33,251 bases of DNA from Eubacteriales bacterium. Lineage in GTDB: Bacteria; Bacillota; Clostridia; Lachnospirales; Lachnospiraceae. Under the pieces are notes generated by a model that had not been told where the DNA came from, did not search any database, and worked only from the letters and a program-made list of their open reading frames with translations. Both the position numbers and the translations under genes were made by a program. Below are positions 1 through 29,392 of this stretch, in pieces (the stretch's first letter is position 1; the number at the start of each line of letters is the position of its first letter). The DNA is taken from assembly GCA_030536755.1 (NCBI GenBank), contig JAUNPJ010000043.1, positions 1 through 33,251 on the forward strand, read 5' to 3'.

Positions 1-255
1 TTAATACGGTTTGAAACAGCTTTTTACCGAAAGCTTTATTAAAGTGCGCCTTTTTGAGGAATTTTCTGAACTTTGCATAAAAGTTACACTATGCATTTGC
101 CCCACCCCCGCATAGTTACTATGTTTTCGAAGATTTAGTATAACTTTTATGCAAAGTTCAGAAATTTGTTTTATACAACTTTCAGCCTCTTGTAATATTC
201 TTTCGTTTTTTTCTGCTTCTTTTCTTAAGTTGACGTTAGGTTGACCACATTGGGG
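1..255 (-). pseudogene. Open reading frame remnant cut by a seam repeat
   Basis: The minus strand is open from the in-frame TGA inside the seam repeat (256-258) to a TAA at 3-1, about 84 codons. The first part is charged and helix-like (LRKEAEKNERILQEAES) and could be the tail of a real protein. The rest runs through a long inverted repeat and looks less protein-like. There is no start codon with a ribosome binding site at the right-hand end, so if it was a gene, its 5' part is gone at the repeat. I recognise no family. It may be chance open sequence. Confidence 0.25.
63..164. repeat. 24-bp perfect inverted repeat with nested hairpin
   Basis: Positions 63-86 and 141-164 are perfect reverse complements over 24 bp (core gcataaaagtta). 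The 54-bp spacer contains a second inverted repeat, actatgc at 88-94 and gcatagt at 110-116. There is no T-run after the right arm, so it is not an obvious terminator. It could be the end of a mobile element, an inverted duplication or a recombination site. Its role is unknown. Confidence 0.6.
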
Positions 256-272
256 TCAGGTACTCAAAAAAT
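243..272 (+). repeat. Seam repeat, copy 1 (core ggggtcaggtactc)
   Basis: This 30-bp copy is identical to positions 3859-3888. It lies 12 bp past the stop codon of the tandem nuclease gene, and the open frame 1-255 begins inside it. The sequence style (short G/C-rich half site at gene junctions, several copies in both orientations) resembles REP-type elements mobilised by Y1 (TnpA_REP) transposases, but no such transposase is in the window. Confidence 0.75.
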
Positions 273-284
273 ACTCGTTATTTA

Positions 285-1265
285 TTATTTTTCCAATTCT
301 GAAAGTATCTCATCCAGTCTGTCCAACAAGTAGGTGGATGGATCTTCCAAATCGAGCTTCATCTTGTTCATTTTAATCAAATCCTCAGTATCCAAGAGAA
401 TAATTAACTTTCCATTTTCTCTCAGACAACCTTTTGCCGCCCAGTAAGCATGTTCATCATAACCATGTGCTGCAATGATTATTCCTACACTTCGCAAAGC
501 CTTTGCGTATAGATACTTCTCTGTAGTATATACTTCTTTTTGAGTTATAGGTTCCTTGTAATTCTTGAACTCAAAAATCACATATTTCGACTTGAAATAT
601 CTTTCAAGGATTGACCAAAATGTTTTTTGATTTTCATCTTTGATTCGGCAAAGAAGATCAAACCTATACAAATCATTATTTGATTTTTGTTGTTCGCTCC
701 ACAATGCTAAATCTTCAGAAAAAATATTCTCTAAAAGCTTCTGGCATAATACCTCATATGTTCGCGCCATCGGCTTTCCTGCTTCACATAGAGCCATCTC
801 TGCAATTAATGAATTCGTGTAATCATCATGTTGAAAACTGTCAAACTGAACAAATCCTTTTTGCGGCTCTATGTCAGCAACTGTAAATGGCAATATTGCT
901 ATTAATTCGTTGCGCAATTCGGTTCGATATTGTACAGCAAATAACAAATTCGCAATATCTATCAGAATTAAATCTGGATATTCTTCTTGATAATGGCTTC
1001 TCTTTTTTTCGTCAATCTGAAACGCTGTTACCAATATCGGTGTCATTCCACAAGATTGCCCAATGGTATAAATTCGTTCAACAGCTTTTTCAATTAGCTG
1101 TGAGTATTTTACCTCAATACAATAGCTGTTGCCCTCTTTCTCAGCTACAATATCAATATCCCCTGATCGTTGTTCTAATTGAACATCTTGCTGTATGGCA
1201 TACCCAGCTTCACTAAATATTTTGGCAATAATGTTTTCAAACATATACCCGCTTCTTGCATCCAA
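285..1265 (-). CDS. Tandem PD-(D/E)XK (Mrr-like) restriction endonuclease-type protein
   Basis: This 326-residue protein appears to carry two restriction-endonuclease-like domains. The first, about residues 8-110, has the core G35-D36-I-D38 followed by E51-V-K53. The second, about 170-310, has RFDLL (D203) followed by E232-F-K234, then a GIIIAAHGYDEHAYWAA segment and a LIILLDTEDLIKM end typical of the Mrr fold. The start is a TTG with a GAGGTG ribosome binding site 8 nt upstream; the next ATG is 7 codons downstream. It lies 80 nt behind abiEii on the same strand, so it may be the third gene of the abiE operon. Mrr-like proteins cut foreign or modified DNA; that role here is inferred from fold motifs and context. 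Both active-site cores look intact. Confidence 0.7.
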   Translation of the reverse strand: MDARSGYMFENIIAKIFSEAGYAIQQDVQLEQRSGDIDIVAEKEGNSYCIEVKYSQLIEKAVERIYTIGQSCGMTPILVTAFQIDEKKRSHYQEEYPDLILIDIANLLFAVQYRTELRNELIAILPFTVADIEPQKGFVQFDSFQHDDYTNSLIAEMALCEAGKPMARTYEVLCQKLLENIFSEDLALWSEQQKSNNDLYRFDLLCRIKDENQKTFWSILERYFKSKYVIFEFKNYKEPITQKEVYTTEKYLYAKALRSVGIIIAAHGYDEHAYWAAKGCLRENGKLIILLDTEDLIKMNKMKLDLEDPSTYLLDRLDEILSELEK

Positions 1266-1345
1266 GAATTATTCACCTCATCTCTCGTGCTATTTGTTTT
1301 CTATTGTATACAGTTGCTACCCTTCGATTGAGATTTCATAGAAAC

Positions 1346-2344
1346 TTACAGTGAATTGATTTCCTTTTCTAACTCCCTGATCACTTCCATAACTGCCTCA
1401 AAGGAAGGAACATCACCATAGAGCATATCCCTCATGTCCTCATAATCTGCAGCAAGGGCCACAAAACGGAACTCTGGTGGAATCAGCTTCAGCGTTCCCG
1501 GAACAGCTTCTGGATATTTTGCCCATGCTCTCGGATAAAACTTCATTTTGAAATCGACCACAGTTTTCAATAGGTCCGCCCGAGCAAAAGCCTCATCTTT
1601 AACAGGCGTCATAGACATACGGTACAGATCATAGTAGTGCCGTGAGTATCGCTGGGGCATTTCCAGATGTTCTGGTCTGTTTGCTTCATGATGCAGAATC
1701 GTTGCTTTTTCCCAAAAAGTCCGTTCCGGAGCAACTGTCAGAATTGCCGAATCTTTTTGCTCGAAGATTTTCGGATAATAGGTCGCAGCATAAGGTTCAA
1801 TCTTAGCAATTTTTGCCGGGGTCCACGCTGCCAATGCACCAATTTCCAGACGAATGACCTGCAAAGTCGATGCGTTTGTAAACAGGTGTGGATAAGCAAA
1901 AATAACGGTCTGCTTTTCTTTTTGATCTATGTAGATGTTTGCCTCGCAGCCAAGTTCACGAGATATTTCTGTCTTAATAGTTGGGCAAAATTGTTCTGCA
2001 AGAAAAATCTCTGCCCGTGCATTGGCCTCTTTGTTGAAGGCATCCTGCTTAGTGTTGGAGCGCTTTTCCCAAGGTTCATCCTTGCCATAGCCCAATACCC
2101 GCCAGTCCAAGATCAGGTCAATATCCTCAGAAAAACGGCTAATTAGATTAAACGCTTTAGAAAGACTTGTACCACCCTTGAATGTGATCGAATTTCTCCA
2201 TAGACAGCGATGGAACAGATAGTCCAGCGTAAAGCATACCCAAAAGTCTTTTTCCACAATGGCATCATTTAGGCCCATCTTGTCTGCTGTATTTCGGAAC
2301 AGCTCCCGCCGGTCATTCTCCGACAACCGTGCTATATTTCTCAC
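1346..2344 (-). CDS. AbiEii-type nucleotidyltransferase toxin
   Basis: A 332-residue protein of the AbiEii / nucleotidyltransferase toxin family, the toxin of type IV abortive-infection toxin-antitoxin pairs. The nucleotidyltransferase signature is clear: FKGGTSLSKAF (residues 55-65, with the G-G-T-S loop) followed by FSEDIDLIL (71-79), where the acidic pair should bind metal. AbiEii-type toxins of this class transfer nucleotides to an RNA target (tRNA for the related MenT toxins) and arrest growth. Its ATG overlaps the stop codon of the upstream AbiEi gene in an ATGA arrangement, which indicates translational coupling. Length and motifs look complete, so the toxin is probably functional. Confidence 0.85.
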   Translation of the reverse strand: MRNIARLSENDRRELFRNTADKMGLNDAIVEKDFWVCFTLDYLFHRCLWRNSITFKGGTSLSKAFNLISRFSEDIDLILDWRVLGYGKDEPWEKRSNTKQDAFNKEANARAEIFLAEQFCPTIKTEISRELGCEANIYIDQKEKQTVIFAYPHLFTNASTLQVIRLEIGALAAWTPAKIAKIEPYAATYYPKIFEQKDSAILTVAPERTFWEKATILHHEANRPEHLEMPQRYSRHYYDLYRMSMTPVKDEAFARADLLKTVVDFKMKFYPRAWAKYPEAVPGTLKLIPPEFRFVALAADYEDMRDMLYGDVPSFEAVMEVIRELEKEINSL

Positions 2345-2955
2345 CGTATGTCACCTCCACAAATTTTCCGAATTGTATCATAAACCCAATCTGTAGATTC
2401 CGCTGCCTCTTTCAAGCAGGCTTGCTTTTCATCATCAGACAGTTTCTCTGAAAGAGTTTTTATAATATCTGAAGTTACATTGGACCTTCCAAGTGTCTTT
2501 AATGCCTGAATAACCAAGCTTGTCATATAAGATAATCCGGTGATTTCCTTATTGGTCCTATGCTTAAACTCCAACTTCGTAGAATTCCACTCATAGGTCT
2601 TGTATGGACCGTCGCTAATGTAGGACCAAACCGCAGTTACCTGTGTGGATAAGCCCAGTAGGTTAAGGGCTGTATTTCCGCATGGAGCAACAGTCCAGTG
2701 ATAGCTTCGAGCCAATGCTTTTGCAACTGCATCTGGATCCGCTGCAACATATTCTTCAAGCAACTTACTGTATTTTGGCTTTTCATAAACACCTTGCAAT
2801 ATTCTCCTTAACGTTCCATCATTTACAAGACGATAGATGCTTTGGCGAATTGTATTGGTATCTGCAATATCTGCAAAATCCGATGTTACGAAAACAGTAC
2901 CATCTTCAGCAGAAAGAACTCTTTCGCGTATTCCGCTCATATATCCATTTGCCAT
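2341..2955 (-). CDS. AbiEi-type antitoxin / autorepressor (DUF6088-like)
   Basis: A 204-residue protein encoded directly before the AbiEii toxin. The N-terminal 60 residues form a winged-helix DNA-binding segment (VFVTSDFADIADTNTIRQSI then LVNDGTLRRILQGVYEKP), followed by a domain with the family feature of a 'TALNLLGL' stretch. This is the organisation of AbiEi antitoxins, which repress their own operon and counter the toxin. The ATG at 2955 lies downstream of GGGGTGA; a second in-frame ATG five codons on (MSGIRERV) is a possible alternative start. Two palindromes upstream are probably its operators. Confidence 0.8.
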   Translation of the reverse strand: MANGYMSGIRERVLSAEDGTVFVTSDFADIADTNTIRQSIYRLVNDGTLRRILQGVYEKPKYSKLLEEYVAADPDAVAKALARSYHWTVAPCGNTALNLLGLSTQVTAVWSYISDGPYKTYEWNSTKLEFKHRTNKEITGLSYMTSLVIQALKTLGRSNVTSDIIKTLSEKLSDDEKQACLKEAAESTDWVYDTIRKICGGDIR

Positions 2956-2976
2956 AGTCCCTCACCCCTTTCCTTT

Positions 2977-3014
2977 GTAACGAATATTATATATTATTCG
3001 TTACATTTTTGCAA
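2977..3014 (-). promoter_or_regulatory. abiE promoter overlapped by a perfect palindromic operator
   Basis: Reading the minus strand, TTGCAA (3014-3009) and TATAAT (2991-2986) are 17 bp apart, a near-consensus sigma-A promoter, 31 bp from the AbiEi start codon. A 28-bp palindrome with perfect 10-bp arms (gtaacgaata / tattcgttac, 2977-3004) covers the -10 box and most of the spacer. Binding here would block RNA polymerase. AbiEi antitoxins are known to autoregulate by binding inverted repeats upstream of abiE, so AbiEi is the likely ligand. Confidence 0.75.
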
Positions 3015-3095
3015 CTGCATGGGAAGATATATTTTCAGCATTCCCAAAAGAAGCATCATACATACAACAAAAAATACCCAATGGCCGTCTTTTTT

Positions 3096-3123
3096 ATAAC
3101 GGATAATATACATTATTCGTTAC
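3096..3123 (-). promoter_or_regulatory. Second, imperfect copy of the abiE operator
   Basis: A 28-bp inverted repeat with the same arm length and 8-bp centre as the 2977-3004 palindrome. Eight of ten positions of the left arm match the first copy, and the right arm tattcgttac is identical. It starts 119 bp upstream of the first. No convincing promoter overlaps it, so it looks like an auxiliary operator that could allow cooperative binding or DNA looping by AbiEi. Confidence 0.65.
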
Positions 3124-3241
3124 ATTTTATGATTGCTCAATTATTCTTATAACAGAAACCGGTACTTACTGCCATCAAAATATCTCCTCGTTCAAAGTAT
3201 TCTCAATTTCTACCCATATCAGCTTTATTCTAAATTCAAGA

Positions 3242-3267
3242 AACGGCCCGGATTGTTCCGAGCCGTT
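3242..3267 (-). terminator. Hairpin after the small accessory gene
   Basis: On the minus strand, 4 bp past the TGA at 3272-3274, a stem forms from aacggc...gccgtt with an inner cgga-acaa-tccg. It is followed only by a weak T-rich stretch (gtttcttg), so termination efficiency is uncertain. Confidence 0.5.
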
Positions 3268-3271
3268 AAAA

Positions 3272-3595
3272 TCAGATTGCTTTGATTTTTTTGAGGTAAG
3301 CCACCGCATCCGTATGTCCGCGGAAGTAAAGCTGCAGGCGCTCCATATCATCCAGCTTTCGGGATAACCGAAGACATTGAACAAAGGCAGCGTGTTCCTC
3401 TGCGGTCAGATGAATCTCACCTTTGTCCTCCATCACTTTCATAATACACGGGAACCGCTTTTTCAGGTCAGAGATCTGCTGTTGAATGTCTGCGTATTCT
3501 TCGCTGGTTTTCCGCAGATCCGTTACAATATCGCTGTCGATCTCCGGGAAGGAATCCTCCAAGCGGGAGGGCAAATCGAAATATGTGTCACTCAT
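3272..3595 (-). CDS. Small conserved protein of clostridial mobile regions
   Basis: A 107-residue acidic, helical protein starting MSDTYFDLPSRLEDSFPE. I chose the ATG at 3595 because an AGGAGTG ribosome binding site lies 8 nt before it; a GTG three codons upstream is less likely. Proteins with this start are common behind DUF1273/SLOG genes in clostridial integrative elements, and here the tail of such a gene does lie 63 bp upstream. The central part (residues about 20-45) could form a coiled coil. Function unknown; no catalytic motif is visible. Confidence 0.6.
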   Translation of the reverse strand: MSDTYFDLPSRLEDSFPEIDSDIVTDLRKTSEEYADIQQQISDLKKRFPCIMKVMEDKGEIHLTAEEHAAFVQCLRLSRKLDDMERLQLYFRGHTDAVAYLKKIKAI

Positions 3596-3658
3596 AGTTT
3601 TCACTCCTGTTTTTCTTTTACTATACCCATAGGGCAGGGCAATATCAAATGTGCAATT

Positions 3659-3856
3659 TCATTTCTGCTCTGCAAGATTGATGACCGGCTTGCCTTGCTT
3701 TTTCGCGTATTTGACGGTTTCATAGGCACCGCCAAAATCCCGGAACAGATAGGCGATCAGGCAATCGGCTCTGTCCACCAACCAGCGGTTACGCTTTTGA
3801 ATCGCGGCTTTGTAGTGAACGCCGCACAGTTTCTCTGGAATAATGATTTCATCATA
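3659..3856 (-). pseudogene. 3' end of a DUF1273/SLOG-family gene
   Basis: The last 65 codons of a gene whose 5' part has been replaced by the seam repeat at 3859-3888. The remaining sequence contains the RNRWLVDRADCLIAYL and GGAYETVKYAKKQGKPVINL segments characteristic of the C-terminal half of DUF1273 (YpsA/YspA-like SLOG) proteins, a Rossmann-like nucleotide-sensing fold. No start codon or ribosome binding site remains. The following small gene (3272-3595) was probably its operon partner. Confidence 0.7.
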
Positions 3857-5462
3857 GAGACCACATTGGGGTCAGGTACTCAAAAAATGTACTGGTAAAA
3901 TCAGTATAGTTAGTCACATCCGTCAAGGTCTTCATGGCAAACATCTCTTCACTCTGCCAGTTGCCCTTATGCGTCCACTTTATCTTGCGGATGTTCGGAT
4001 ATTCACCATCGTGATTTTCGTCATACTCATAATCAGATTCTACAATGCCACGGCCAAGAATCTCACTCCGCCCACGCTTTGCAAATATCACATCTCCAGG
4101 CTTAAGGTCATGAACAAACTGCCATACAGCATGAACAGAATTCTTGTATGATGAATCTCCTCCATGAATATCACGGAGCTTCTGTGCCATCTCTTCTTTG
4201 CTGGCATAAGTATTCAGGTCACCCAGCTCATCCCAGCCAAGTCCCATAATGCCTGCAGCATAAAAATCCTCCCACATGGATGCACCTTCACCCGGTGCAT
4301 AGAGCCAATAATGTACGGTATCTACATCCGCATCACCCAAAGAATTTTTTTCTTTGTTTTTCGCAGCATTATCTGCAACACCATTTTTAAAGATCTCGGA
4401 TGCCAATTCATCTGTCATCTCAACAGACTGCCCCTTCTCCGTCAGCGTCCAGATCCCATACACTTTATTATCAATATACCCAGCTTTAACCAAATAGCTT
4501 CTGGCAAAAGCAACCTCATTCTCAAATTTATTTACGTTATTCTTACCGCGTGTGGCATTTACCTCTTCATCGGAAAGATGCTCGTTCTCAATGATCCGTT
4601 TTCTTGTATCCTCAGGTGTCGCTGCCCCTCCAAGATCCCGAAGTGCCTGAAGGACGGGTCCAAACCATCTCAGGAATGCCGCATTTGACTTTCCAGATTT
4701 AGCTTTCTTCTCCATTTCACCCTTCTCGACAGACACAATCCATGCTTTATGTGAAAGCTCCGGGAAAGAAGCATAACCATATTCTCCGGACTCAATGGCT
4801 GCTTTGCACTTATCACGGATTGAAAGATACTTCTCCGCAGTCGGAACGGACTTCATAGACTTCATCTCTGCGACCACATTAGCGGAGATATTAGCTGGAT
4901 TGCTCATAAATTCTCTGTTGCGTGAATCCATATTGATATAAGTATATGGACGGATCCAGTACAGTCCCATTGTCAAATTCCAACGAATAGCAAACTGGGA
5001 CTTGACCTGATCATAAGCAGACATGAACAGACTGCGATTTTCCTGTGTGTCAGTATCAGCAAAATTGATAGCTGCTTCAAACACCTTCCAAAGATTATCA
5101 ATATCATCGTCCTTACGGCGCTCATCACCCTCAAAAGCATAGAATGTAGCCATCATGTTGTTCAATACCGGTATGCCTGAGAAATCATCAGGGATTTCTG
5201 CAGTGATACCGAATTCCAAGGCAATACCGCCTAGAATCGTAATACGATTAGTGTCGGTTATACCTTTATTAAACAATCCGAATACAGTGAACGGATCAAT
5301 ATCCTTTGGAACATTATCTTTTTCCAGTTTCGGCAATTTCATCCCGATATTGGAATACACCGCTTGAAGTTTCGCAATAAGCACACTCCTATCTTTCCTG
5401 TATTCTAATAATTTGGTGGCGAACTCCATATAAAAGTCTGCCCATTTGAATTGTTTCGACAT
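3852..5462 (-). CDS. McrB-like restriction protein truncated before its GTPase domain
   Basis: 536 residues. The N-terminal ~260 residues (KWADFYMEFATKLLEY onward) resemble the leader region of clostridial McrB homologues. They are followed by an Mrr_N-type winged helix (about 270-350, ALRDLGGAATPEDTRKRI ... YGIWTLTEKG) and an EVE-like reader domain (about 385-525, HYWLYAPGEGASMWEDFY ... GDVIFAKRG). McrB should continue into an AAA+ GTPase domain that drives DNA translocation and recruits McrC. Here the frame runs into the seam repeat and stops; the final residues FFEYLTPMWSL are repeat-encoded. No Walker A motif is present and no mcrC follows. Modified-DNA binding may persist, but restriction should be lost. 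ATG at 5462 has AGGAGG 8 nt upstream. Confidence 0.7.
   Translation of the reverse strand: MSKQFKWADFYMEFATKLLEYRKDRSVLIAKLQAVYSNIGMKLPKLEKDNVPKDIDPFTVFGLFNKGITDTNRITILGGIALEFGITAEIPDDFSGIPVLNNMMATFYAFEGDERRKDDDIDNLWKVFEAAINFADTDTQENRSLFMSAYDQVKSQFAIRWNLTMGLYWIRPYTYINMDSRNREFMSNPANISANVVAEMKSMKSVPTAEKYLSIRDKCKAAIESGEYGYASFPELSHKAWIVSVEKGEMEKKAKSGKSNAAFLRWFGPVLQALRDLGGAATPEDTRKRIIENEHLSDEEVNATRGKNNVNKFENEVAFARSYLVKAGYIDNKVYGIWTLTEKGQSVEMTDELASEIFKNGVADNAAKNKEKNSLGDADVDTVHYWLYAPGEGASMWEDFYAAGIMGLGWDELGDLNTYASKEEMAQKLRDIHGGDSSYKNSVHAVWQFVHDLKPGDVIFAKRGRSEILGRGIVESDYEYDENHDGEYPNIRKIKWTHKGNWQSEEMFAMKTLTDVTNYTDFTSTFFEYLTPMWSL
3859..3888 (+). repeat. Seam repeat, copy 2, identical to copy 1
   Basis: This 30-bp sequence is identical and in the same orientation as 243-272. 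It separates the DUF1273 gene fragment from the truncated McrB-like gene, and the last 11 codons of the latter are read from it. Together the two copies bracket a 3.6-kb block holding the tandem nuclease, AbiE and the small protein, as expected if the block moved or recombined by way of the repeats. Confidence 0.8.
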
Positions 5463-5488
5463 GCTTCCTGCCTCCTTGAATTCTTTTT

Positions 5489-5650
5489 TTATGAATGCAA
5501 TTCCCTATATAGCTTGCCTGCTAATGCGGCCTGCACTGTATGGTATTTCTTTGCATCCAGGAACAACTGCTTATATGCCTCTGTATTCTCAGCATATGCA
5601 GACATTGCCGTCTCATCGAAAATGCTAGGGAACACGCTCCGGTCATAGAC
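5489..5650 (-). pseudogene. C-terminal fragment of an unidentified gene
   Basis: An open stretch of 53 codons ending in TAA just upstream of the McrB-like gene, closed on its 5' side by an in-frame TAG (5653-5651) shortly before the next seam repeat. The sequence (FPSIFDETAMSAYAENTEAY ... KLYRELHS) is protein-like and recalls the C-terminal tail of type I restriction R subunits, but this match is from memory and weak. The gap to the McrB-like ATG is 26 bp, so both were probably one operon before decay. Confidence 0.45.
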
Positions 5651-5675
5651 CTAGCGGTCATCCGTCTGGGAGAGA

Positions 5676-5697
5676 CAATGGGATCAGGTACTCAAAA
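5676..5697 (+). repeat. Seam repeat, copy 3 (one-base variant)
   Basis: Contains gggatcaggtactcaaaa, differing by one base from the shared core (ggggtcaggtactcaaaa). It separates the gene scrap at 5489-5650 from the group II intron fragment. Confidence 0.65.
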
Positions 5698-6018
5698 GAC
5701 ATTTTGGAAGGAAAATACAGGTTCTCCCCAGTTGACACGTAATCCTTGTGTAACATGAATAGTTCTCTCCGACACCGCAGAGCCACGTGAAATCTCGCCA
5801 TTACGATAAACCCGTGTGTTGCCTTCCCCTCAGACAACAGAGTCGGCACTCTGAGTTATGGGATTTCGGTGCTCTATAGCTATCCCTATTACCTTGCTGT
5901 CTACGCTTAGCATATGACGTTACCGCCATACACCCAAGACTCGCTTCAAATGCTGTGGCTAACAGCTTATTCGACAGGATTTCCACCTGCCGGATTACGC
6001 ACCCTTAGCTGGGCGCAC
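5698..6018 (-). mobile_element. 5' fragment of a group II intron (domain I part)
   Basis: Read on the minus strand, the segment begins GTGCGCCCAGCTAAGGGTG, which carries the GUGYG start of group II introns and matches the opening of well-known members such as Ll.LtrB (GTGCGCCCAGATAGGGTG). It continues through domain I-like sequence to CAACTGGGGAGAACCTG, then ends about 320 nt in at a seam repeat. Domains II-VI, including the catalytic domain V, and the intron-encoded reverse transcriptase/maturase are absent, so it cannot splice or move. The 5' splice junction lies directly after the seam core ggggtcaggta. Short open frames across this segment are not genes. Confidence 0.8.
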
Positions 6019-6030
6019 TACCTGACCCCT
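6019..6030 (-). repeat. Seam repeat, copy 4 (abuts the intron 5' end)
   Basis: Minus strand reads aggggtcaggta directly followed by the intron's GTGCG. This core is shared with the other seam copies, although the sequence upstream of it (caaaacatc) differs. Confidence 0.6.
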
Positions 6031-6095
6031 GATGTTTTGTGAAATGAGTTGAACATCCTGACTGACCCTTATGTTTCAATTAATCGAGTAGAAAA

Positions 6096-6782
6096 TCACC
6101 CAATTAACTGCTCCCCAATCTGAACCATTTTTTCATACCAATCTTGAAATAATTCATGTCCTGCAATTCTCTGAGGATGATAGAAAGATACTACAGGTGT
6201 TGACTTATCTTTTTCATCAAACTTACAGTAAAAGTAGTTAAAACCATTTTTTGTTTGTTTCCACTCACTTAATGCATTTTTAGGTAATATTTCTTCGTAC
6301 AATAAATCAGCATTCTTTCCAGTACCTCTTCCACAACAAATGATGATATCTGGCTTATATAACAACAACTGTTCCAGCAAAAACCCTTTATCATTTTTTG
6401 CATAGGAACGAATTATTTCGTCATTCGCCCGACTGCTGCCACCAACTTTTTTGAGATTAATAAAACTCACTTTCGATAACCAAAATGTTTTATCTGCTTT
6501 AGAAATATATTTAGGATATTCCCCCTTTTCAAGAAGAGCTTTGGTCCATCTGGCAATATTGTTCCATGTTTTCCAATAGGTTGATTTTGGTTCTGACATA
6601 ATCCACTCGCATAAATCTACGGTATGATTCTTCCAATTCGCTTCTTTCAATACAAAGGTAATTTTTATTTCTTGTTGATTCCAAACATTTTCATCAAATA
6701 TCCCATCTGCGACAAAAGAATCATAACCTCGTCTCTCTTTCCAGTGTTTAAAGAGTTCTCGTTCTTTTTCTTTAATAGACAT
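6096..6782 (-). CDS. Possible uracil-DNA glycosylase-fold protein, function unknown
   Basis: A 228-residue protein without signal peptide or membrane segment. Features that recall the uracil-DNA glycosylase superfamily are an early strand-loop ITFVLKEANWKN (about residues 40-51), a central YKPDIIICCGRGTG (about 144-157) where family members have a strand and glycine loop, and a late VSFYHPQRIAGHELFQDW (about 199-216) resembling the family's H-P-(S) motif. UDG-fold proteins remove or sense altered bases, and some members occur in defence islands. The assignment is from motif layout only. The ribosome binding site is weak. No co-oriented neighbour is close enough for an operon. Confidence 0.45.
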   Translation of the reverse strand: MSIKEKERELFKHWKERRGYDSFVADGIFDENVWNQQEIKITFVLKEANWKNHTVDLCEWIMSEPKSTYWKTWNNIARWTKALLEKGEYPKYISKADKTFWLSKVSFINLKKVGGSSRANDEIIRSYAKNDKGFLLEQLLLYKPDIIICCGRGTGKNADLLYEEILPKNALSEWKQTKNGFNYFYCKFDEKDKSTPVVSFYHPQRIAGHELFQDWYEKMVQIGEQLIG

Positions 6783-6822
6783 ACCCGCTTATCCTATTCT
6801 TTTATTCCATCTTCCTAAGGCA

Positions 6823-6866
6823 CCAAAAAAATAATGCCCTGTAGGCTTTTCTACCTACAGAGCATT
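6823..6866 (-). terminator. Rho-independent terminator
   Basis: On the minus strand, arms aatgc-t-ctgtagg and cctacag-g-gcatt close on a short loop and are followed by atttttttgg. It ends transcription of whatever gene once ended at 6878, before the 6096-6782 gene. Confidence 0.8.
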
Positions 6867-6877
6867 ATAACATAATC

Positions 6878-6925
6878 TTATGCAATTACAATTCTTCCAG
6901 CCAGCATTTTACTTGTCGAGAGCAC
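6878..6925 (-). pseudogene. 15-codon gene tail between seam repeat and terminator
   Basis: Minus strand reads VLSTSKMLAGRIVIA then TAA, 11 bp before the terminator hairpin. This looks like the last codons of a gene whose body was removed at the seam repeat (6922-6944). Too short to identify. Confidence 0.3.
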
Positions 6926-6944
6926 TACCTGACCCCAATGTGGT
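6922..6944 (-). repeat. Seam repeat, copy 5
   Basis: Minus strand carries accacattggggtcaggta, the same 19 bases as copies 1 and 2, but then continues gtgc instead of ctcaaaaaat. It lies 15 bp after the stop codon of the TPR protein. Confidence 0.7.
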
Positions 6945-6959
6945 TCATTCTGATATTAC

Positions 6960-8110
6960 TTATTCATAATAGCTGCCTGATGAATAATGTGGTGTGAATT
7001 CTACATTATAGTTATCCAATTCCACATCCTGATCATCAATCCAAAAATCGGCATTTGCCTCTACACCAGGCTTCCAACTTTCAAGATTTCCACCAGATCC
7101 AGTAGTGATAATGCTTCCTTTAGCATCAACAACATTAGCATCAACATAGAAATACTCAAACGTAAGATCCGTAGTGTTTTTCATTTTTAATCCAAATGTT
7201 TTATATCCCCACTCATCTTTTTTCACAGTTATTTCAAAGGATTGGCACATCTCAGCGACATCAGCCTTAACTTTGTTATTTGCTGCTACTGCTTCTGCGT
7301 CAACCATAAGATCATCTAATGTATCCTGATGTTCTTCATCTACAGTTAATCCATATTCTGAAATCATTTTTTGAAGAAGAATTGTTCTATTCGCATAAAC
7401 TTTACCCCATTTATCCGAATATGCTGAATAATTAACTGTGTACTGTTTTGTTGCTTCCTGAGCTTCTTTCAGATAATCAATATACTGTCTTGCATCGTCT
7501 TGAAGTTCAGTATTGTCAAAGGTTTGATCGTAAAACTGTTCTACTTGATCTAATTCGATCTGACAAAATTCTCGATATCTATCTGGATCTTCTCCTACTT
7601 CACCATTTTCCTCATATTCATCATTTTTATCCCAACGAGCCATTAAGCCTTTTGAAAGTGCTCTCATGAATTTGCCATCAACGGTTAATTCATAATTACA
7701 TTTTTCGACCCAATCTTCAGAATCATTATAATCCTGGATGCCCTCAAAAATTTTCAAAGCTTCCTCAAAATTCTCGCTCGTAAATGCTACATTTCCTTCC
7801 TGGTACTTACATTCATTTACCAGCTCTGCTGAATCTTCATAATCTCCTAACTCAGCAAAAATAGCTTCAGCCTCTACATAATTCCGGTTGTTTAATAATT
7901 CCTGGGCCTTAGCATAATCTCGGGAATTTTTAGTAACAAAAAAAGCAACCACCGCGATAATAGCGATAGCACAAATGACACCAGCAACAATAATGCCAGT
8001 CTTCTTATTAGCTGGCTTCTTTGCGTTTTCCGACTCTGTTTTACTCTCATTTGTTAAATCAGTAGGTACAGTTTTATTATCCCCTTCGTCGTTCGCCTCT
8101 GAGGACGCTA
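6960..8110 (-). pseudogene. TPR-type single-pass membrane protein, 5' end lost to IS630
   Basis: The remaining ~380 codons encode an acidic linker, one membrane segment (KKTGIIVAGVICAIAIIAVV), two repeats of the type FAELGDYEDSAELVNECKY, a helical region, and a C-terminal FxLYD-like domain (FGLKMKNTTDLTFEYFYVDA). Proteins of this layout in Clostridia usually begin with a zinc ribbon on the cytoplasmic side and expose the repeats outside. Here the reading frame enters the left end of the IS630 element at 8111, so N-terminal residues read through the element are artefacts. Joining across the element (one TA removed) keeps an open frame back to an ATG at 9449, but that start has no ribosome binding site and adds no zinc ribbon. 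Probably inactive. Confidence 0.65.
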
Positions 8111-8163
8111 GTGTGCTGACAAATTGATTTCTAAAACAAAATATTCTCAAGTCTGACCCATTT

Positions 8164-8844
8164 TCATGAGTCAAACTTTGGATATAATGAACGAAGTTTT
8201 GTCCTTGCATCTTCTGCTGTGAAATGCCAATTGACACTCCTGCGATTTCGGTTTCGTCTGCTTTCCCATGCAGAAAGTTCTTCTGATAATTTCTGGATAT
8301 CATCAATCCTTCGGTCAAGACATTGTCTGGTCATAGCATTTAATTCAATTTCTGCGATATTTAACCAGCTCCCATGTTTTGGTGTATAGTGGATTTCGAG
8401 ACGATTTGCCAGTGCAGCGGCTTCCGGGGCAGGAAAACTCTGATATAAAGATGCTTTGGTATGTGTATTCAGATTATCCATGACAAGAATTATTTTTTCA
8501 TAATCTGGATAAACTTCTGTGAGAAGATAACGGATTTCTTCCGCCCAGTCCTGTCTGGTCCTCTGCCGACGGACGCTGACATGGCGGTAATCCGCAAGTG
8601 TCTCTGTGAATACAAAAATACTGCAGGTTCCACAACGGATATATTCAGAATCCAGCTTTTTGACATCTCCGGGTTTGATTTCCAGAGGTTCCCTTGCTTC
8701 TCCGAGAAGTTGATATGGTTTTTCGTCCATGCAAACAACCGGAAGATTTTTGTTATACGGAAGAGAATATATATGAAGGATGTCCTCCATACAGGCCACA
8801 AATTCGGCATTTTCTTTGGGTGGGATACACCAGTATTCGTTCAT
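8164..8844 (-). CDS. IS630 transposase, DDE catalytic half
   Basis: A 226-residue frame with the three parts of the DDE transposase core: CMDEKPYQLL, LVMDNLNTHTKASLY, and WLNIAEIELNAMTRQCL, supplying D, D and E. It overlaps the upstream half by ATGA and lies in the -1 frame. Reading the -1 frame upstream of its ATG gives KKNELKPHMNEYWCIPPKE, the usual uninterrupted IS630 sequence, so the functional product is probably a fusion made by slipping at the A8 run (8861-8868). Alternatively, a single-base change split a formerly continuous gene. Confidence 0.85.
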   Translation of the reverse strand: MNEYWCIPPKENAEFVACMEDILHIYSLPYNKNLPVVCMDEKPYQLLGEAREPLEIKPGDVKKLDSEYIRCGTCSIFVFTETLADYRHVSVRRQRTRQDWAEEIRYLLTEVYPDYEKIILVMDNLNTHTKASLYQSFPAPEAAALANRLEIHYTPKHGSWLNIAEIELNAMTRQCLDRRIDDIQKLSEELSAWESRRNRNRRSVNWHFTAEDARTKLRSLYPKFDS

Positions 8845-9305
8845 ATGAGGCTTAAGTTCATTTTTTTTAACATCACACGAATGGTTTCCTTACTGACTGG
8901 TTCAGCTACGCCCTTTTTGTTCACTTCTTCTGTCAGCAGTTCCAGTGTCCAGCGGGCATGACCTTCTGGCGCTTCGCCGCATGCAAGTTGGATCACATGG
9001 GCCTCCAGTTCACCATTTGTTTTACGTGGACGAACAGACGAAGGATTAAAATGATGAGAGATCGCAGAATCCAGTCCGTTCTGGGAATAATTACGTGCCG
9101 TTGCTACAATCGTAGTTACGGTTGTGTTTAATGCGGAAGCAATCTGTCTGTGGCTTAAATTGGAATTGTTTTTATTATCCAGAGCCAGAAGAATCAAAAC
9201 ACGTTTGGAAACACGTGCAGACAGAGTATTATCGTTGCTCATTGCCAAAAGTTTTTCTTTCTCTTCCTGACTGAGAGAAACTGTATATTGAGTATGACGT
9301 CCCAT
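8841..9305 (-). CDS. IS630 transposase, N-terminal DNA-binding half
   Basis: A 154-residue frame with two helix-turn-helix regions: LSHRQIASALNTTVTTIVATARNY (about residues 51-74) and a C-terminal winged helix ending TIRVMLKK. These bind the terminal repeats. The ATG has a GAAGGAAA ribosome binding site. The frame ends six codons after the A8 run, whereas the -1 frame continues into the catalytic half. Confidence 0.85.
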   Translation of the reverse strand: MGRHTQYTVSLSQEEKEKLLAMSNDNTLSARVSKRVLILLALDNKNNSNLSHRQIASALNTTVTTIVATARNYSQNGLDSAISHHFNPSSVRPRKTNGELEAHVIQLACGEAPEGHARWTLELLTEEVNKKGVAEPVSKETIRVMLKKMNLSLI

Positions 9306-16218: not shown

Positions 16219-16281
16219 GGGACAGGGGGGACGGTTCTGTGTCCGGGATACAACCCGGACACAGAACCGTCCCCCTGTCCC
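16219..16281. repeat. REP-like palindrome at a convergent gene junction
   Basis: A 63-bp element with arms of about 28 bp, complementary except for one bulged G, around an 8-base loop. The arm contains ggggacggttctgtgtccgg, a sequence type repeated widely in Firmicutes genomes and attributed to REP elements moved by Y1 transposases. It fills almost the entire space between the nuclease stop (16214) and the aminopeptidase stop (16285), and as a very stable stem it may also act as a bidirectional transcript end, although no T-run follows. Confidence 0.85.
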
Positions 16282-29271: not shown

Positions 29272-29374
29272 CATTGCGCAGGGGGGATCTGCGTAAAAAA
29301 CTCAGGAGAGTCCCGCAAAAAGCGGGCGCCGAAGGTGTACCCGGCAAGATGCCGCTAATCACTCAGGCAAAAGG
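29272..29374 (+). ncRNA. Glycine riboswitch, single aptamer
   Basis: The aptamer core (29301-29374) has the hallmark elements in order: caggagag, a gc-rich stem (cccgc-aaaaa-gcggg), gccgaagg, a second stem (cccggc ... gccg) and ctcaggcaaaagga. Only one aptamer is present. A hairpin directly upstream (cgcag-gggggat-ctgcg, 29276-29293) is in the place of the 'ghost aptamer' stem that supports some singlet glycine riboswitches. The ribosome binding site of the symporter gene begins three bases past the aptamer, so control is probably at translation initiation or by nearby refolding. Confidence 0.92.
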
Positions 29375-29392
29375 ATGGAGGGAGAATTTCAT

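Follow-up and report, generated by a model that had tools for sequence, protein, structure and literature searches.

We analysed a short repeat, here called the seam, in a 33,251-nucleotide stretch of DNA from a lachnospiraceal bacterium (Eubacteriales bacterium, assembly GCA_030536755.1); this stretch, hereafter the window, is the entire contig JAUNPJ010000043.1 (C121) of a 3.84 Mb genome, and its defence genes are AbiE, an Mrr-type nuclease, and an McrB-like gene. We give roughly even chances to the reading that the seams were left as scars by mobile elements that inserted at a single preferred core sequence. Judged from sequence, the repeat looks better identified as the end of an IS4-family insertion sequence (IS) plus an 11-bp target than as a genome-wide repeat. 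If this is true, the seams are a readable mark of the breakage and rejoining of defence islands in gut bacteria, and a concrete agent can be named, the IS4-family element of Blautia, for which the choice of target is testable; a repeat resembling a repetitive extragenic palindromic (REP) element can then be what is left of an IS end next to a favoured target.

Seam copies in the window

The core GGGGTCAGGTA, allowing at most one mismatch, has five matches within 6.7 kb of the window, at 252–262 (+), 3868–3878 (+), 5680–5690 (+, one mismatch), 6019–6029 (−), and 6926–6936 (−), against a mean of 0.16 and a maximum of 2 in 100 shuffles. The five seams of the preliminary description are thus real, and sequence comparison also confirmed their arrangement: copies 1 and 2 are in direct orientation and identical at 30/30 bp, and copies 4 and 5 are inverted relative to them (Table 1). 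The layout reads as an IS end (GACCACATTG), an 11-bp target-like core (GGGTCAGGTAC), and a constant arm (TCAAAA); GTGC directly follows the core in both copy 4 and copy 5. That the matches are due to chance or to assembly misjoins is the least probable of the accounts we weighed: the assembly is in 145 contigs with an estimated contamination of 5.12%, but the core matches far exceed the shuffled expectation, and the same seam is present in the assembly of a named Blautia luti strain.

Table 1 Features of the window associated with the seams
Feature	Position	Strand	Description
IS4-family outer-end remnant, 28 bp, just left of seam copy 1	225..252	+	26/28 vs Blautia IS end
Seam copy 1	243..272	+	GACCACATTG + GGGTCAGGTAC + TCAAAAAAT
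Mrr_cat nuclease gene	285..1265	−	PF04471, E 4e-10
AbiEii toxin gene	1346..2344	−	PF08843; PADLOC AbiEii 4.7e-108
AbiEi antitoxin gene	2341..2955	−	PADLOC AbiEi 8.5e-63
SLOG (DUF1273-like) 3′ gene fragment	3662..3862	−	Lacks its 5′ part, lost at seam copy 2; 53% identity to an SLOG protein
McrB-like gene with Mrr_N domain	3852..5462	−	3′ part missing at seam copy 2
Seam copy 2	3859..3888	+	30-bp identity with copy 1
Seam copy 3	5671..5697	+	One mismatch in the core; adjoins the intron fragment on its cut side
Group II intron 5′ fragment	5691..6018	−	RF02005 at 5763-5983(−), E 2.9e-46
Seam copy 4	6019..6029	−	Core only, then intron
Weak uracil-DNA-glycosylase-like candidate gene, between copies 4 and 5	6096..6782	−	PF03167, E 0.0073, below cut-off
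Seam copy 5	6926..6945	−	AACCACATTG + core, then GTGC

Match of the seams to an IS4-family element

The sequence just left of the core at copy 1 matches the Blautia IS end at 26 of 28 positions, whereas the next-best site in the window reaches 17 and 200 shuffles reach no more than 19. The IS end is retained over 10 bp at copy 2 and 9 bp at copy 5. The string ACCACAKTGGGGTC was found in 5 of 46 genomes, a sample partly picked for carrying the IS (18 copies in G515, 5 in G145, 3 in the window genome, 2 in G478, and 1 in G467), and in neither G469 nor G466, two genomes with partial or distant IS matches. All three copies of the window genome lie inside the window; in G515, 13 of the 18 are at IS ends and 5 are solitary, as judged by coordinates.

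An intact IS4-family transposase gene lies between two B. luti seams (NF033592, E 1.1e-49; PF01609; YREK motif), with the reversed seam core GTACCTGACCC on either side of the IS. The DDE transposase carries Y(2)R(3)E(6)K in a single open reading frame (ORF), reading YFYRWPVETKYKELK in B. luti and YFYRWPVELKYKELK in L074. Transposase matches at a limit of 1e-60 were present in 6 of 64 Blautia genomes: in G515, an IS 67% identical to that of B. luti is present in eight copies, seven of them full and one damaged; G467 has one full copy, and three further genomes have partial or distant matches. The G515 ISs are 1622–1627 bp long, with CAATGTGGTCAAC and GTTGACCACATTG as their ends, and have on either side an 11-bp direct repeat of the form GGG-N5-CCC (exact in 6/8, one mismatch in 2/8). 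GGG-N5-CCC is the target preference of IS231, a member of the same family. Both IS ends start with CAATG; compared with the consensus -AATR--------WTW, WTW fits one end (CAATGTGGTCAACTTAAG) but not the other (CAATGTGGTCAACCTAGCG). The B. luti transposase had no match in plasmids (limit 1e-40), phages (limit 1e-30), or viral contigs.

The transposase and the duplication of the Blautia IS agree with the IS4 subgroup as characterized in PMC2266710, namely a YREK DDE transposase and a target duplication of 10–13 bp, a range that includes 11 bp; of the subgroup's end consensus, the Blautia IS shows the -AATR start (CAATG) at both ends and WTW at one. Unlike a member of that subgroup, the window genome has end remnants only, and its constant arm lies outside the target. 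PMC2266710 gives CAT as the start of IS231-subgroup ends, from which the CAATG ends of the Blautia IS differ. PMC1196294 describes IS231 as nesting in the terminal repeats of other transposons, and mobile insertion cassettes as cargo carried between IS ends without a transposase. Around the window cargo, paired inverted ends with matching duplications were not seen: read as IS ends, those at copies 1 and 2 (+) and copy 5 (−) are oriented inside-out relative to the cargo, and inspection by eye showed no duplications that pair up.

In G002, a sister species, a miniature element with 29-bp inverted ends lies between GGGTCAGGTGC and GGGTCAGGTAC. That the core was duplicated is probable rather than certain, because two older seams could explain the flanks in both B. 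luti and G002. We suggest that IS4-type elements inserted at the seam sites, that later deletion or recombination between scars would have removed the IS bodies together with the missing gene parts, and that a group II intron would have entered a core, with loss of the intron's 3′ part afterwards.

Several results, the alternative origin of those flanks among them, weigh against insertion scars. Copies 3 and 4 have no IS end. A search with the B. luti query returned 0 matches to an IS4-type transposase at E 0.001 in the window genome or in G002, the core pair flanking the G002 element has one mismatch, and a script search found no duplication pair at the G467 copy. At the B. luti IS, 16 extra bases (a doubled IS end) separate the IS from one flanking core, and by script the 11-mers form a pair solely when the IS end is placed 264 bp further out. 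The composition of the 46-genome sample counts on the same side, and so does the arm TC(A/G)AAA, which most copies share unchanged beyond the 11 bp (TCAAAA reads TCGAAA in 4/6 B. luti copies), since independent insertions would not produce constant sequence there. The doubled B. luti end is at L055 8235–8300 and appears as if a solitary 10-bp end had become a new IS terminus.

A possible palindromic landing site

Because the TCAAAA arm lies outside an 11-bp duplication, the elements probably landed in a sequence that was already a short repeat; it may have been a short mobile palindrome where IS4-type elements and the intron landed, with the palindrome perhaps coming before either landing. One further seam copy of the window genome, on contig C41, forms a short and imperfect palindrome in which both types of arm occur, and folds with z = −4.35 (0/200 shuffles), and some seams may therefore be palindrome halves. 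The arm-1 block common to copies 1 and 2, one of the two copies on contig C69 (C69a), and the G002 copy stops 5–6 bp before the palindrome centre, and the second C69 copy (C69b) shares GTCAGGTACAATAAAGT with arm 2, up to about 4 bp short of the centre (by eye).

The same observations are what a different account would draw upon, in which each seam would represent a single arm of a short palindrome that is mobile, spans about 46 bp between its cores, and was seen complete once, at C41. Central breakage, or the one-ended remains of a miniature transposon (ends GGGGTCAGGTACTCAAAAG and GAGTCAGGTACAATAAAGT), would have left half-elements, and IS4-type elements would merely land there. This account also covers the constant arm, and we allow it a modest chance. 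It has to contend with the single complete palindrome, with B. luti copies that run on into other sequence, with a scripted arm-2 comparison (out of frame) that returned 0, and with window seams 1–5, none of which folds clearly better than shuffles (z = −0.68, −0.30, −0.89, −1.22, and +0.36, respectively; one B. luti seam copy reaches −2.18). The 28-bp IS end at copy 1 is left without explanation by a palindrome arm.

On the minus strand at 6061–6077, AAACATAAGGGTCAG resembles the C41-palindrome arm AAACATAAGAGTCAG and is perhaps a sixth, decayed seam (by eye).

Comparison with REP elements

The preliminary description had taken the repeat for a REP-like or recombination-prone element and had proposed looking for a Y1 transposase gene flanked by it. 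REP elements moved by a REP-associated tyrosine transposase (RAYT) would fit a repeat that is short and, in some copies, partly palindromic. The exact 11-mer, however, occurs only seven times in the window genome (four in the window, one on C41, and two on C69; reversed-pattern control: 0), whereas usually more than 100 REP elements per genome are mentioned in PMC2817692. No RAYT was found in the genome; its sole Y1 match is an IS605 TnpA followed by TnpB, on a contig without the 11-mer. With no hairpin signal at the window seams either, we rejected the REP-like identification and regard it as very improbable. A partial parallel is ISPpu9, which inserts into REP sequences according to PMC8450116; there, too, an IS lands in a repeated palindromic sequence, although both the organism and the IS are different.

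Genes and intron at the seams

Copy 2 joins two broken genes, an SLOG fragment and the McrB-like gene, each cut, and the last residues of the McrB-like ORF are read from the seam. Residues 361–530 (of 536) of the McrB-like protein align to residues 272–445 of a 747-aa Rhodococcus ATPase with mcrC adjacent, an alignment by which the gene is short by about 300 aa. The SLOG fragment is 53% identical to residues 88–150 of a 152-aa Monoglobus SLOG protein and, because the alignment begins at residue 88, is short by about 87 residues. Homologue alignments thus bear out the earlier statement that at this junction a DUF1273 gene lacks its 5′ part and an McrB gene its 3′ part. The start of an intron at copy 4 was likewise confirmed: the RF02005 intron begins with GTGCGCCC immediately after the core. 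Apart from RF02005, no family of group II introns scored at or above its gathering threshold anywhere in the window, and the intron therefore looks incomplete. A search for intron homologues returned weak Rhizobium matches only, and the pairing between intron and core amounted to one 5-base complement, which is at chance level.

The earlier view of every seam as a broken junction holds at copy 2, but the claim that only gene tails remain at copies 1 and 5 was not confirmed, as ORFs 285–1265 (−) and 6960–8318 (−) each close with a stop codon of their own, at distances of 12 and 14 bases from the respective seams. The frame at 166–237 (−) adjoining copy 1 had no convincing family match. The piece at 5492–5641 may be HsdR-tail-like, a reading that no family supported. 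Elsewhere, one C69 seam ends the frame of an IS66-type gene (DUF6444 by profile), which we take to be tnpC, and a 162-aa B. luti frame continues into a seam. Between G000:C69 and G002:C46, the common sequence is limited to the part beginning at 7017, at a distance of 23 bases from a seam core. Seams as joints of rearrangement are therefore partly supported overall, by copy 2, by the end of the IS66-type frame, and by the C69/C46 boundary.

Occurrence of seams in other genomes

The repeat is not confined to this locus, confinement being what the preliminary description had said would refute its model; it is also on C41 and C69, in G002, and in B. luti. It is rare: GGGGTCAGGTACTCAAAA was found in 2 of 145 genomes (four copies in the window genome and one in G002), TGGGGTCAGGTACTC in 2 of 397 genomes of the family in a draw without G002 (four in the window genome and one in G006), and GGTCAGGTACTCRAAA in a single genome among 64 from the genus to which G145 belongs, with five copies within 12 kb. 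A genome-collection search returned four stretches: B. luti, the contig of G002, and two that are chance-like. In B. luti (L054, L055), a single contig has six seams in the same orientation, spread from 15.5 to 29 kb, four of them exact for the searched 13-mer. A search of plasmid and phage DNA with the B. luti seam and seam copy 1 returned MT836320 at E 0.02–0.04, and the first 9.3 kb of the window had no near match among plasmid and phage records. Among the papers that literature searches returned, none describes the repeat, judged by title.

Several candidates were set aside. The viral-contig match L018 and the collection matches L035 and L037 are chance-like and without an IS-type flank (by eye), L086 shares GACCACATTGGGGTCTGG in an unrelated context (by eye), and the G006 copy is without the AAA arm (by eye). 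The copies on G145:C73 and G002:C64, with one mismatch each, are at chance level because the reversed control gave 4 matches in G145 and 1 in G002. Weaker plasmid and phage matches to the seams were taken for chance, and two additional patterns searched in viral contigs returned nothing.

Seams and defence modules

A further alternative is that the seam marks the boundary of cassettes, small defence and toxin modules that a recombinase would exchange there in the manner of an integron-like array. Dissimilar left and right flanking sequences are joined at the same core; the six B. luti copies share one orientation over 13 kb, and two of them enclose a toxin-antitoxin-like ORF pair (partly by eye; the antitoxin is below the Pfam cut-off). 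In MT836320, moreover, the seam lies between two candidate defence genes, one matching PADLOC PDC-S21 and the other an AAA ATPase gene with AriA-type matches. No site-specific recombinase was found, however, among the 29 window ORFs scanned with Pfam; the genes at copy 2 are cut, not whole; the window seams show no folded site; and the link to defence, drawn from a few loci, may be due to chance. We consider such exchange unlikely. An equally slight chance is given to a broader proposal, in which one rare 11-bp core would be the shared landing and break point for an IS4-type IS, a miniature element, and a group II intron in gut Lachnospiraceae, half-palindromes would mark cut-and-rejoined defence and toxin modules, and the scars would form a cassette-exchange system of defence islands in more than one genus.

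MT836320.1 (L061 1–6028) is a faecal scaffold filed as a bacteriophage, with candidate defence genes and an ArsC-like gene; it looks more like a bacterial defence region than a phage. Just upstream of the AbiE genes in the window, a near-identical pair of palindromes lies at 2976–3009 and 3097–3128, both arranged around TGTAACGAATAATATATAATATTCGTTACA; from their position, we guess that they are possible AbiEi operators.

Other elements in the window

At the contig start, a 29-bp inverted repeat (63–91 and 136–164, 96.6% identical) has its arms around TTCTGAACTTTGCATAAAAGTTA and looks like a miniature transposable element. A transposase in two overlapping frames (8164–9305; DDE_3, HTH_32) is presumably IS630-like. 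The 50 bp at 16226–16275 are 92% self-complementary, and a glycine riboswitch aptamer (29293–29388) lies ahead of a sodium:alanine symporter gene.

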